Of a DNA stretch of 34,949 bases, positions 2,234 through 7,515 are shown in pieces. The DNA comes from Chloroflexota bacterium (GTDB lineage: Bacteria; Chloroflexota; Anaerolineae; Promineifilales; Promineifilaceae). Every line of letters starts with the position of its first letter. Position 1 is the first letter of the stretch. The translations under genes and the position numbers were made by a program. The notes below the pieces were generated by a model. It was not told where the DNA came from. It did not search any database and saw only the letters and a list, made by a program, of their open reading frames with translations. Location: contig RFGV01000446.1 in NCBI GenBank assembly GCA_003696605.1, forward strand, positions 1 to 34,949, written 5' to 3'.

Positions 2234-2428
2234 CTGTGACACCCTTTGTCGGTGGGTTACCCGCACCGGTTTGTGGCATCACTTTGCTGAAGGGGCACAG
2301 ACACAGGGCGTGGCCACCCTGGGAGGCATCCGCTGATCTCTCGATTTTCGGCTGCTTGGCCTTAGCTCCGCCTCGCGACGGAGAACCTCCACCTCGTCAA
2401 CCCCGGCAAACACCGGGGCCCATGCGCT
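2234..2428 (-). ncRNA. glmS ribozyme (glucosamine-6-phosphate-activated self-cleaving RNA)
   Basis: Read on the minus strand, the RNA has the glmS ribozyme landmarks in order. A candidate cleavage site A/GCGC lies between 2428 and 2427. P1 is CCCCGG/CCGGGG (2418-2413 with 2406-2401), followed at once by TTGACGAGG and TGGAGGTT (2400-2384). A variable extended arm covers 2383-2334. The second conserved block GCGGATGCCTCCC is at 2333-2321, its CCTCC able to pair with GGAGG. A P3-like hairpin CAGGG/CCCTG follows (2321-2306). P4 is CTGTG-CCCCTT (2300-2290) with AAGGG...CACAG (2246-2234). P4.1 is a hairpin with a GUAA tetraloop flanked by CAAACC and ACAAAG, as in Bacillus ribozymes. Position directly upstream of glmS agrees. 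Known members bind glucosamine-6-phosphate, cleave the mRNA and lower glmS expression. The loop of the extended arm and the 3-bp GCGC/GCG pairing are less typical. Confidence 0.9.
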
Positions 2429-2492: not shown

Positions 2493-2520
2493 TTGACAGT
2501 TTCAGACCAATTTATATAAT
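2493..2520 (+). promoter_or_regulatory. marR-RND operon promoter
   Basis: TTGACA (2493-2498) and TATAAT (2515-2520) are both perfect consensus, with 16 bp between them. The predicted start is near 2527. The -35 box is only 4 bp from the divergent glmS -35 box; together they form TGTCAA-CCAT-TTGACA. Confidence 0.8.
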
Positions 2521-3036: not shown

Positions 3037-6000
3037 ATGCTTTCATCGTTGTTTGACCGAATTACAAGACTATCACTTCGCTATCGCTGGGTAACGTTGG
3101 CGATAGCAGCAATTGTATTAGTGGTGGGTGCCTGGTCTATGACGCATTTGAATCTGGAGCTATTGCCTCGTATTGAATTTCCACAAACGGTGGTTGTGGC
3201 TCAATGGTCAGGTGCTGAAACGGCCGAAGAGTTTGCCCAGGCAGTCACAATTCCACTGGAAGAGAAATTGCAAGCCATTGATGGGGTGGTAAATGTCGAA
3301 TCTACCACGAATAGTGGGTTTGCGTTTATTATCGTTCGCAATGATTTTGGCCTGGACCAGGATGCGATGGTGGCTGCTATTGAAGCAGCAGTGGCCGAAA
3401 CAGATTTGCCGGACGATATGGAGACGCCTCAGATTGTTAATTTTAGTCTTTCGGATTTGCCCGTCGTTGTGGCCAGCGTATCTTCGGCTGAACTGAGTTT
3501 GCCAGAATTGAAGGCATTGGTGCAAGAGGAGTTACAGCCGCAGTTGGCAGAACTGGAGGAGGTGAGTCAGGTTACGGTTAGTGGTGGCCAGGAATTGCCG
3601 GAAGAAGTGGTTGCGGAAGGTGGGGATAATGAGGTGGCGGAAACGGAAACGGCCGTTTCTGAGCCAACCCCCGAACCTACGCCAGAACCAACTGCTACCG
3701 CCGAACCTGGCCGCTTGCCTGACATCCTGGTGCAACAGGCACAAGATGCAGGCCTGGAAATCGAAAACGTCCAGGACATTACAGTAGAGTTACTGCAAGA
3801 GCTGGCTCAGAGCGGCGATCCGGAAGTTGCCGCCCAAAAAGTCATGGCACTTTTGCGGCTTATCCCCCCAGACTTGCTTCCTTTTGCCCAGCCAGAGACT
3901 TTGGCATTTTTACCATCTGAATATATCAGCTTACTTGATCCCACACTTGTTGCAGAGCTAAACACACTTGCTGCTGATTATGGAGGGGTGGGGCAATATA
4001 CCATTGTCGAAGCCATTACCGTTCTGCGTGGTGAAGATGCTGCGGGCGAGGAAGTGGCTGAAGAATCCCCGACACCCGAAGAAGCAACTGTTGAGCTTCC
4101 GGTGATGGAACCGGTGGAATTGCCCGAAAGCTGGGTAGCTGGTAGTGCCGCCATGGGATTAGAGCTGACAACAACGGCCGATCTGACACCGGAAATTATG
4201 CAAGGTGTTGTGCAATTTGCGCCCCAATTGTTGGCAGAATTGACCCCGGAAATGTGGCGGGCGATTGTTCCAGAAGCTGTCGCGGTCGCGTTGCCGGCGG
4301 TGGCAGATATGCTGGAGCCAGAACTGTTGGCCCAATTGCAAGCCATTCAACTGGCGGCTTCCGGCACTGCCCCAGAGCCAGTTCCGTTGCCTTCTTCCTG
4401 GATTGCAGCAGCCAGCTATGCGGGGCTGACAATAGAAACAACGGTCGATATTTCTGCCGACGCCATGACGTTGATTGCCGGCAGCACACCAGAATTGCTG
4501 GATGCCCTGACGCCAGAAATCTTGCTGGCCTTTACACCAGATGTGCAGGCTGCTTTGCCGCCAGAGTACGTGGCCACCCTGGATGATGGTTTGCAGCAGA
4601 CTTTGACCGCAATTCAGGTGGCTAACGCCCGGTTTGTGGCACAGGCTGAGACTGGTGCAGGTGGTGAGGAAACGGCCGAAACACCGGCCGCCGATCCTGC
4701 CCGCTTGCCCGATTTATTGGTACAAGGCGCCAAAGCCGCTGGTTTGGACATTGAATTTGCCTCCGACATCACCCCCGAACTTGTCCAACTCTTGAGCGGA
4801 TTTGGTCCACAAGGCATTCAGTTCTTGAGTATGCTGACGCCTGACAATTTGCGCGCTTTGCCGCCAGAAAGCATTGCCTGGTTACCAGCTGAATTTCTGG
4901 ACACACTCGACGCAGAATTGCGGGCAGAATTGGATGGACTGGCAGCTGAATTTGGTGGCGCTGGCCAACTGGCCTTGCAAGCGGCCGCCGCAGAAGAGAC
5001 CGAAGCAGAGGCAGATACATCACCAGCCCTGAGTGGTATCTGGCTGGAACCAGGTCCAAATGGTGAACCCCCCTTGTTCCAAACGGCCGATGATCTGCTG
5101 AATAATCCGTTTGGAGTAGGAGCTGCTGATTTGCTGAACCGGTTGCCATCTTCCCCGAATGTTGCAGATCCGGTGCCGTGGTTTGCTGCCTTGTCGCCCG
5201 AAGTATTGCAGTATTTGGCCGAGAATGAAGAAGGGTTTGTGGCGAATTTGTCGCCAGTTGTGTTGGAAATGCTCTCACCGGAGGCTTTGACTTTCTTGCT
5301 GGATACGTATCCTGATGCGTTTGCGCCAGAAGAGGTGGAACGTTTGCGGGGCATTGCCGCCGGTGAAATTGAGGTGTTTGTCCCTGAGGCTTCTATTACG
5401 CGTACGGATGGCAACCCCAGTGTGATTGTTAATGTGTTTAAGGATGGGGATGCCAATACGGTCGAGGTCGCGCATCGGGTGTTTGACGCGCTGGAGGCGT
5501 TCAAGGAAGAACATCCGGAGATTGAAACCAATCTGGTGTTTGAGCAAGCGACCTTTATTGAGGATTCTATTGAAGGTGTGTCGCGTGAAGGGGCACTGGG
5601 TGCGGTCTTTGCGGTGATTGTGGTGTTGTTGTTCCTGAGTGGTCATGTGGGTGGTAAATATCGGTTGAGCTGGCGGGCAACGCTGGTAACGGCCGTTTCT
5701 ATTCCGCTCTCTGTCTTTACTGCCTTCTTGCTCATGCGTTGGCTTCCGCCCACATTAGGCGTCTGGCTGCACAGCGTGTCCGAATCCAGTAACAACGGCA
5801 TCCTCACCTTCATCACGCGTCTCTTCCCCACCAACGTTACTCTGAACATCATGACATTGAGTGGGATGACGGTGGCTATCGGGCGTGTGGTGGATGACTC
5901 GATTGTGGTGTTGGAGAACGCTTATCGGTATATTCAGCAGGGGGATGATCCCAAACATGCCATTATTGAAGGCACACGAGAAGTCGCCATCGCTATCTTC

Positions 6001-7515
6001 TCGGCCACGGCGACGACTGTAGCGGTCTTCTTACCCTTGGGGCTAATTGGGGGAATCATCGGTTCCTTCTTCCTGCCCTTTGGTCTGACTGTCACTTATG
6101 CCCTGGCTGCCAGCTTTGTGGTGTCTATTACGGTTGTGCCTGCCCTCATGTACCTGTTTGTACGGCGTGAGCATTTGCCGGAAGAGCGGGAAACAACAAT
6201 GCAGCGATGGTACACACCGATTTTAGAGGGGGCATTGCGCCATCGTGCTTTGACGTTGGTGATTGCGTTAGCAATTTTCCTGGGTAGTCTGTTCTTGCTA
6301 GGACAATTGCCGCGCAGCTTTATTCCGGCTTTGGGTGAGCCGACAGTGAATGTAACGGTGAATTTGCCACAGGATACATTGATGGCGGAAACAGATGCAC
6401 TGGTGCGGGAGTTGGAAACGGCCGTTTCCCAAATGCCCGGCGTTGAGACCATTCAGGTAGAAGTCGGCAGTGCTGGTGGTTTCGAAGCCTTCTTTGGTGG
6501 TGGGGGCATCAACCAAAACCAGGCCAACATAACCATTACTGTAGACGATCAGGACGGTATAGAAGAACTGACCCGTCAGGTACGGCAAGAGGCCGAGCGT
6601 ATATTTGGCCCGGACCATGTGCGTGTCTCTGCTGCGGCGCAAAGTGGCTTCAGCGGCTTCAGCCTCATCGTAACAGGCGACTCACTCGAAACCTTGCAGG
6701 AAATTGCGCCAGACGTCAAAGCGGCCATTGCTGCCGTTGATGTGGATGAAGATGGTGTGCCCGATATTGCCAATGTAACCAGCAACCTTGACACAGCCAC
6801 AACGACTGGTGACGGCGTTATCATCCGCATTGATGGTCGGCCAGCTATCAGTTTTAACGGTGAGCTGGAAACAGAAAACACACTTGGTGTAACCAACGCA
6901 GCCAAAGAAGCTGTCCAAAACCTGCCCTTGCCTGCTGGCGTAGAAGTAACCGAAGGGTTCGACTCACAGCAACAGGTGGAAGGCTTCCGGAGCATGGTCA
7001 CGGCCATTGGGTATTCCATTCTCATTGTTTACCTCATTATGGCCCTGACATTCCGCAGCCTGATCCACCCCTTTACTATTCTGTTCAGCTTGCCCTTTGC
7101 ATTGGTCGGTGCTTCTATTGCCTTGTACATTACGAACAGTGTATTGGGTATTTCGGCAATGGTTGGCTTCATGATGTTGGTTGGCATTGTGGTAACCAAC
7201 GGTATTGTGTTGATGGAGCTGGTGCAGCAATTGCGGAAACGAGGCCGTAATGCGTATGATGCCCTGGTTCAAGGTGGTCGCACCCGTTTGCGTCCGATCT
7301 GGATGACGGCTCTGGCTGCGATTTTGGCGCTCATTCCTCTTGCAGTTAGTGGCGAAGCTGGTGCGATTATTGCATCGGAATTAGCCCGTGCTGTAATGGG
7401 TGGGTTGTTGGTAAGTACAGCTTTAACATTGATTGTTGTGCCTGTCGTTTACAGCCTGATTGATGATTTTGGGCAATGGTTGAGCAAGCGGCTTTCCAGA
7501 AATCGGGTGAAATAG
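3037..7515 (+). CDS. RND-family efflux transporter with a giant repeat insertion at the docking-domain position
   Basis: The 1492-residue inner-membrane transporter of the HAE1/SwrC type is about 450 residues longer than usual. TM1 (about 19-36) is followed by porter subdomains with typical sequence up to VTVSGGQ (residue 185). Residues 186-778 are a Glu/Pro/Leu-rich insertion; normal porter sequence resumes at VFVPEASITRTDGNPSV. TM2 begins near 853. The TM4 proton-relay pair is present as RVVDDSIVV (Asp953, Asp954). In TM10 the Lys of AcrB (Lys940) is Thr in GIVVTNGIV, as in Gram-positive SwrC-like pumps. The second half has its own porter domains and TM8-12. The start follows AAGGAG. No membrane-fusion or outer-membrane gene is adjacent. 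Proton-driven export is inferred; the substrate is unknown. Confidence 0.93.
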   Translation: MLSSLFDRITRLSLRYRWVTLAIAAIVLVVGAWSMTHLNLELLPRIEFPQTVVVAQWSGAETAEEFAQAVTIPLEEKLQAIDGVVNVESTTNSGFAFIIVRNDFGLDQDAMVAAIEAAVAETDLPDDMETPQIVNFSLSDLPVVVASVSSAELSLPELKALVQEELQPQLAELEEVSQVTVSGGQELPEEVVAEGGDNEVAETETAVSEPTPEPTPEPTATAEPGRLPDILVQQAQDAGLEIENVQDITVELLQELAQSGDPEVAAQKVMALLRLIPPDLLPFAQPETLAFLPSEYISLLDPTLVAELNTLAADYGGVGQYTIVEAITVLRGEDAAGEEVAEESPTPEEATVELPVMEPVELPESWVAGSAAMGLELTTTADLTPEIMQGVVQFAPQLLAELTPEMWRAIVPEAVAVALPAVADMLEPELLAQLQAIQLAASGTAPEPVPLPSSWIAAASYAGLTIETTVDISADAMTLIAGSTPELLDALTPEILLAFTPDVQAALPPEYVATLDDGLQQTLTAIQVANARFVAQAETGAGGEETAETPAADPARLPDLLVQGAKAAGLDIEFASDITPELVQLLSGFGPQGIQFLSMLTPDNLRALPPESIAWLPAEFLDTLDAELRAELDGLAAEFGGAGQLALQAAAAEETEAEADTSPALSGIWLEPGPNGEPPLFQTADDLLNNPFGVGAADLLNRLPSSPNVADPVPWFAALSPEVLQYLAENEEGFVANLSPVVLEMLSPEALTFLLDTYPDAFAPEEVERLRGIAAGEIEVFVPEASITRTDGNPSVIVNVFKDGDANTVEVAHRVFDALEAFKEEHPEIETNLVFEQATFIEDSIEGVSREGALGAVFAVIVVLLFLSGHVGGKYRLSWRATLVTAVSIPLSVFTAFLLMRWLPPTLGVWLHSVSESSNNGILTFITRLFPTNVTLNIMTLSGMTVAIGRVVDDSIVVLENAYRYIQQGDDPKHAIIEGTREVAIAIFSATATTVAVFLPLGLIGGIIGSFFLPFGLTVTYALAASFVVSITVVPALMYLFVRREHLPEERETTMQRWYTPILEGALRHRALTLVIALAIFLGSLFLLGQLPRSFIPALGEPTVNVTVNLPQDTLMAETDALVRELETAVSQMPGVETIQVEVGSAGGFEAFFGGGGINQNQANITITVDDQDGIEELTRQVRQEAERIFGPDHVRVSAAAQSGFSGFSLIVTGDSLETLQEIAPDVKAAIAAVDVDEDGVPDIANVTSNLDTATTTGDGVIIRIDGRPAISFNGELETENTLGVTNAAKEAVQNLPLPAGVEVTEGFDSQQQVEGFRSMVTAIGYSILIVYLIMALTFRSLIHPFTILFSLPFALVGASIALYITNSVLGISAMVGFMMLVGIVVTNGIVLMELVQQLRKRGRNAYDALVQGGRTRLRPIWMTALAAILALIPLAVSGEAGAIIASELARAVMGGLLVSTALTLIVVPVVYSLIDDFGQWLSKRLSRNRVK
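3592..5370 (+). repeat. Internal protein repeats inserted in the RND transporter
   Basis: This segment encodes residues 186-778. Four clear units of about 85-100 residues start near residues 226 (LPDILVQQAQDAGLEIE), 361 (LPESWVAGSAAMGLELT), 451 (LPSSWIAAASYAGLTIE) and 557 (LPDLLVQGAKAAGLDIE). Each continues with a D(I/L)TPE-like block, then LTPE..., LPPE... and LD..L steps, and units 1 and 4 end in GG-GQ. A fifth, worn unit covers about 664-775. Units 1 and 4 resemble each other most, as do 2 and 3, suggesting stepwise duplication. Linkers are acidic and Pro/Thr-rich (for example residues 205-224). The segment sits outside the membrane. Confidence 0.85.

Follow-up and report, generated by a model that had tools for sequence, protein, structure and literature searches.

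Candidate glmS ribozymes of Anaerolineae (Chloroflexota) with an enlarged arm, an altered P2.2 and a downstream module

The glmS ribozyme is an RNA that responds to ample glucosamine-6-phosphate in the cell by cleaving the message of which it is part. The members from Bacillus subtilis and Thermoanaerobacter tengcongensis, both in RF00234, served as reference for the glmS leader analyzed here, which lies on the minus strand of a 34,949-nt contig (RFGV01000446.1, assembly GCA_003696605.1) from a bacterium of the Promineifilaceae, class Anaerolineae; this whole stretch is called the window below. The window leader resembles the reference ribozymes in cleavage site, P1, P2, P2.1, P2.2, P3, P3.1, P4, P4.1, catalytic guanine and position ahead of glmS. 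In contrast to them, it has two hairpins inserted between P2 and P2.1, A5 and A53 in P2.2, and a downstream helix (X) and hairpin (Y). By identity the ribozyme is an ordinary member; the clade-specific architecture appears to be undescribed.

Identity, gene context and distribution of the ribozyme

A preliminary description of the window had proposed a glmS ribozyme on the minus strand, upstream of glmS. In agreement with it, cmscan matched RF00234 to window positions 2439-2226 (minus strand) with 42.8 bits against a gathering threshold of 37 (E-value 6.3e-7). The alignment spans the whole model (1-167), with all canonical helices present. It was the single RF00234 match in a genome-wide search, and glmS adjoins it on the 3' side: the match ends at 2226, a Shine-Dalgarno sequence AAGGAGG follows at 2076-2082, and the coding sequence runs from the start codon at 2069 to 225 (614 amino acids; TIGR01135, 809 bits). 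The same arrangement, with glmS behind the ribozyme, was found for 112 of the 123 cores recovered from relatives. Judged from its sequence and surroundings, the window leader is very probably a glmS ribozyme with a feedback role on glmS. Its fold energy lies within the ordinary range (z -1.4), as can happen with pseudoknotted RNAs.

The conserved core blocks (A/GCG at the cleavage site, GACGAGG including the catalytic G, the UCG of P2.1, and CGGAUG) are all present. Numbering of the catalytic guanine and of core positions follows PMC11602151 and PMC7125110. The RF00234 alignment puts the predicted cleavage dinucleotide A(-1)/G1 at 2428/2427, where the preliminary description had placed it. Next come the P2.2 5' strand C2 G3 C4 A5 U6 G7 (2421-2426), P1 (2399-2420; 2420-2413 with 2406-2399, in alignment and fold) and GACGAGG (2392-2398), which holds the P2.1 5' strand CGA (2396-2394) and the catalytic guanine (2395). 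The P2 5' strand GGAGG (2386-2390) has its partner CCUCC at 2322-2326; UCG (2342-2344) supplies the 3' strand of P2.1 and contributes to the cofactor pocket, and C52 A53 G54 C55 G56 (2331-2335) make the P2.2 3' strand. The double pseudoknot can form through CGA/UCG and the pairs C2-G56, G3-C55, C4-G54 and G7-C52; 5-53 is not Watson-Crick.

The peripheral domain is also complete. P3 (2304-2321) is followed by P4 (2236-2282; 2282-2275 with 2243-2236), which encloses P4.1 (2269-2250) with its GNRA-type cap. The preliminary description had located TTGACGAGG-TGGAGGTT, GCGGATGCCTCCC, P1, P4, the GUAA-capped P4.1 and the CAAACC and ACAAAG flanks correctly, and had missed the downstream element (2186-2139) and the P3.1 pseudoknot. 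P3.1 joins GGCCAC in the P3 loop (2315-2310) to its complement GUGGCC (2229-2234). Relatives have GAUCAC/GUGAUC, GGUCAC/GUGACC, UGCUAC/GUAGCA and others; these paired variants themselves carry the weight, as the permutation figure for P3.1 is biased by the choice of the best 6-mers in each sequence.

Upstream, a -35 hexamer TTGACA (2483-2488) and a -10 hexamer TACCAT (2460-2465) with a 17-nt spacer make up a promoter pattern (2488-2460, minus strand) with a predicted start at about 2453, that is, some 25 nt upstream of the cleavage site, as the preliminary description had it. Patterns of the form TTGACA-like/N16-17/TAnnnT beat shuffled sequences in the window and upstream of most family members.

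By homology to described glmS ribozymes, the message would be transcribed from this promoter, and the leader (2453-2070) would act as ribozyme and riboswitch. When abundant, glucosamine-6-phosphate would occupy the P2.1/P2.2 pocket as cofactor, and self-cleavage would follow between A2428 and G2427. The resulting 5'-hydroxyl mRNA would then be degraded, probably by RNase J, which the genome encodes (607 bits), and the GlmS level would fall, amounting to feedback repression. To this known design the window's family adds the two-hairpin insertion and A5 and A53 in place of C5-G53, where U6 may pair with A53 in a shifted register. It also adds a 3' module, in which AAGGGGC, beside hairpin Y, can pair with the GCCCCUU that lies upstream between P3 and P4.

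Ribozymes of this kind are widespread in the phylum. RF00234 matched 125 of 400 sampled Chloroflexota genomes, 199 of 396 genomes of the class at E-values up to 0.01 (117 above the cut-off), and 29 of 39 genomes of the window's family at E-values up to 0.1 (15 above the cut-off). The above-cut-off counts are lower bounds, as two family genomes without an Rfam match (G744 and G372) carry an obvious long-armed ribozyme. Given these counts, a glmS ribozyme outside the Firmicutes is unsurprising in Chloroflexota: the preliminary description was right about the taxonomic placement, but there is no rarity in it. None of 99 sampled Acidobacteriota genomes matched, so that the model can be considered specific. 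Pattern scans of viral contigs for ribozymes of other phyla gave nothing usable. The Firmicutes comparison consisted of two records filed as large plasmids, from Acetoanaerobium noterae (L282) and Paenibacillus cellulosilyticus (L283); both share the conserved blocks with the window, but differ in having C5-G53 and in lacking the P2-P2.1 insertion. In other Chloroflexota families the ribozymes have the same core, and many also have a similar insertion together with A5/A53; unlike the window, they are without the X/Y module, some retain C5-G53, and the insertion is absent in L007 and L082.

The downstream module

About 45 nt past the ribozyme lies an element (2186-2139, minus strand) that is shared by relatives. 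Between P3 and P4, the family sequence reads UGCCCCUUCA; farther down the leader it reads GAAGGGGCGU(U)CCC...ACACAAU...GGG(U)ACGCC. Helix X is formed by GCCCCUUC paired with GAAGGGGC. In the window it has 7 bp only, with GCCCCUU (2290-2296) as 5' strand and AAGGGGC (2176-2182) as 3' strand (2296-2290 with 2182-2176). Hairpin Y (2144-2178; GGCGU-CCC ... GGG-U-ACGCC) has its GGC in common with X. In the window, the linker between P3.1 and X contains a hairpin Z (2194-2228), which is variable or absent in relatives.

R1, a model of the downstream element that captures mostly sequence, matched the window at the glmS locus (2186-2139, 38.1 bits) and 20 of the 39 genomes of the window's family at E-values below 0.001. 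When 150 genomes of the class were sampled, all matches below this E-value fell within the family. The element is found once per genome, behind glmS ribozymes, and only in the window's family. It is present also in G744 and G372, which are absent from the R1 model, between the ribozyme missed by Rfam and glmS. The spacing between ribozyme and element differs greatly. A known Rfam family was considered and rejected, as a search of 2060-2320 at E-values up to 10 gave no Rfam match for the element. The module is apparently undescribed in the literature surveyed, which excludes the family survey McCown 2011.

Helix X was tested with strands in fixed register; this replaced an energy-based duplex search against shuffles, which was uninformative because very large loops are allowed. 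The helix is carried by 24 family leaders and shows compensatory changes (U-A to C-G in L112, L117 and L139; U-A to G-C in L113, at the first variable pair), with strand variants UCA/UGA in L117 and L139 and UC/GA in L112. For 12 distinct strand pairs, 90 of 108 positions were paired versus 82 after permutation (p 0.006). Of 22 family leaders, 18 have both strands, 3 have neither and 1 has a single strand. Among the 112 leaders from outside the family, 102 have neither strand and not one has both. Hairpin Y also has compensated forms (GGCAC/GUGCC in L112, GGCGC/GCGCC in L002), but its conservation lies in the sequence more than in covariation (permutation p 0.25, not significant). RNAalifold favours a local GGGG/CCCC hairpin in this region. 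As the same bases are used by X, Y and the local hairpin, the three compete.

What the module does can be suggested from its position. X links the P3-P4 junction to the leader behind P3.1, and therefore a clamp on the peripheral domain would be expected. As most likely role, held with about as much confidence as doubt, we propose that X and Y stabilise the P3/P4 domain and tie the leader to it. Cleavage at the 5' end cannot part the two strands of X, and X should therefore not report cleavage through loss of a strand. The module would represent a partner of the ribozyme outside the known fold, undescribed within the readable literature.

Conservation of ACACAAU in the Y loop, and retention of the element despite its widely varying distance from the ribozyme, would also fit a landing site for a protein (an RNase or some other factor that binds RNA) acting on the cleaved message, with pairing to the ribozyme secondary. 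We consider this possible but rather unlikely, since the X strands change jointly and vanish jointly. It is still less probable that X and Y are a second expression platform, in which GGGG would pair either with the ribozyme (as X) or with its own CCCC, and folding of the ribozyme would set read-through versus termination besides cleavage. The bases common to X, Y and the local hairpin would suit such a switch, as would a terminator-like site in the window (2181-2169) followed by CUUUUGU. However, most relatives lack the U-run (CCCCACGAAAC, CCCAAUAGC) although the element itself is conserved, and the terminator reading of Y is therefore weak.

The enlarged arm and positions 5 and 53

The enlarged arm lies between the P2 5' strand side (GGAGGUU) and AAAAUCGA, which bears the UCG strand of P2.1; from UCG to GCG, the spacing is unchanged relative to the classical core. 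Hairpin A (7 bp, GNRA-type loop), CUAA and hairpin B make up the insert, in this order. In the window, hairpin A occupies 2366-2383 and has a GCGA tetraloop, and hairpin B, of variable length among relatives, occupies 2350-2361. That the arm between the conserved blocks forms hairpins of its own had been recognized in the preliminary description, with 5 bp listed for what is a 7-bp hairpin A (2383-2366). Hairpin A covaries in the window's family, with compensatory types at almost every pair. In 13 non-identical family sequences whose hairpin A has a 4-nt loop, 91 of 91 pairs were formed versus 65 after strand permutation (sd 3.7, maximum 82), a contrast inflated by selection for at least 6 of 7 pairs.

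The preliminary description had also called the core divergent, with the fifth base after the cleavage site lacking its usual partner. This was half right. A2423 (base 5) does face A2334 (base 53) where the consensus has G, and the window has A5 and A53 for the consensus C5 and G53; but the active-site blocks are intact and there is no defect. The change is a recurrent, coordinated switch from C-G to A/A that is common to the whole family of the window. In Chloroflexota cores recovered with a pattern blind to positions 5 and 53, we counted 62 with A5/A53, 55 with C5/G53, 3 with U5/A53, 1 with U5/G53 and one with A5-G6/C53. The combinations A5/G53 and C5/A53 were not found among these cores, a few off-target pattern matches aside. 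Mapped onto a tree of GlmS proteins (110 rows), the two positions change state about 14 times, and well-supported (starred) branches account for at least 5 of these changes. Only this number of switches was used, as the independent-pairs output for 5 versus 53 is circular with rows limited to A/A and C/G.

According to Andreasson et al. (PMC7125110), 5-53 is poorly conserved even though single mutants of the consensus core lose about 1000-fold in activity, and the bulge at position 6 was suggested to be movable. The natural sequences agree in part with such a bulge. In 75 of 96 A5/A53 glmS cores, A5 followed by U6 can bulge so that U6 pairs with A53, and L222, with G6/C53, also fits. About a fifth of the A5/A53 ribozymes are without U6, and re-registration therefore cannot account for all of them. 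A6 and C6 also occur with A53, so that an A-A contact must be tolerated as well. Since, in addition, residue 6 does not track residue 5 on the tree, a slipped U6-A53 pair as sole cause of A5/A53 was rejected. The natural switch from C5-G53 to A5/A53, together with cores ahead of glnA that bulge base 4 (below), bears on the poor conservation of 5-53 despite the mutant cost reported in PMC7125110.

The score just 6 bits above the cut-off, and the roughly 1000-fold loss of single mutants at 5 or 53 in the consensus core (PMC7125110), might suggest a degenerate ribozyme that lost cleavage with its 5-53 pair and long arms and persists as an inert leader, but this is hardly credible with 5 and 53 repeatedly switching jointly and all other core blocks intact across the family.

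Ribozymes ahead of other genes, and neighbouring sequence

In one Anaerolineae family (f5), most genomes have two RF00234 matches. Among the 30 loci that were read, 15 precede glmS and 15, from 15 genomes, precede glnA, encoding glutamine synthetase (one copy scored 248 bits with PF00120 and 103 bits with PF03951). The glnA-leader ribozymes of f5 are L185, L204, L207, L209, L304, L308, L311, L313, L314, L319, L321-L323, L326, L332 and L333. They have a distinct core, GCG[GA]CUG, with CAGCGG in the cores that were checked, and this core pairs fully when base 4 is bulged. Many f5 genomes with a glnA ribozyme also have another, ordinary one ahead of glmS. In the order to which the window belongs, a ribozyme with an ordinary core (L198) likewise precedes glnA. 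Coupling of a bacterial glmS ribozyme to glutamine synthetase control was not found in the literature search results, which do not cover McCown 2011.

In three further genomes, a single glmS ribozyme lies ahead of glutamate synthase (L338 in G650; Glu_synthase, 342 bits), of a YvcK/CofD-GlmM fusion protein (L336 in G611) and of an FAD/FeS oxidoreductase (L337 in G425). At L334, L335 and L339, the ribozyme is followed by a GTPase-SIS (MurQ-like) gene directly before glmS, probably in one operon.

We propose, with confidence evenly divided, that the glmS ribozyme of Anaerolineae is a lineage-elaborated regulator. It would combine a back-pairing 3' module in the window's family and movable P2.2 bulges with a regulon beyond glmS, in which glucosamine-6-phosphate would repress glutamine synthetase, glutamate synthase and the YvcK-GlmM fusion, and would thereby link nitrogen assimilation to the supply of cell-wall sugars. 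With ribozymes ahead of glutamine synthetase, a feedback loop from amino sugars to glutamine would become open to direct testing.

Some sequences near the ribozyme loci deserve mention in their own right. A 6S RNA follows glmS in L007 (3381-3558), and another lies just ahead of the glnA ribozyme in L207 (94-269). In the window, a perfect consensus promoter (TTGACA-N16-TATAAT, 2493-2520, plus strand) is located 4 bp away from the glmS -35 hexamer and points toward a divergent MarR-like gene at 2576, with an inverted repeat, TAGTTAGCAGGGCTAACTA, near 2540-2550 as a possible operator. Farther along the plus strand (3037-7515), an RND-type efflux protein of 1492 amino acids, an unusual size for this family, has a large repeat-bearing insertion early on, with a PTPEPTPEP linker and repeated helical segments.
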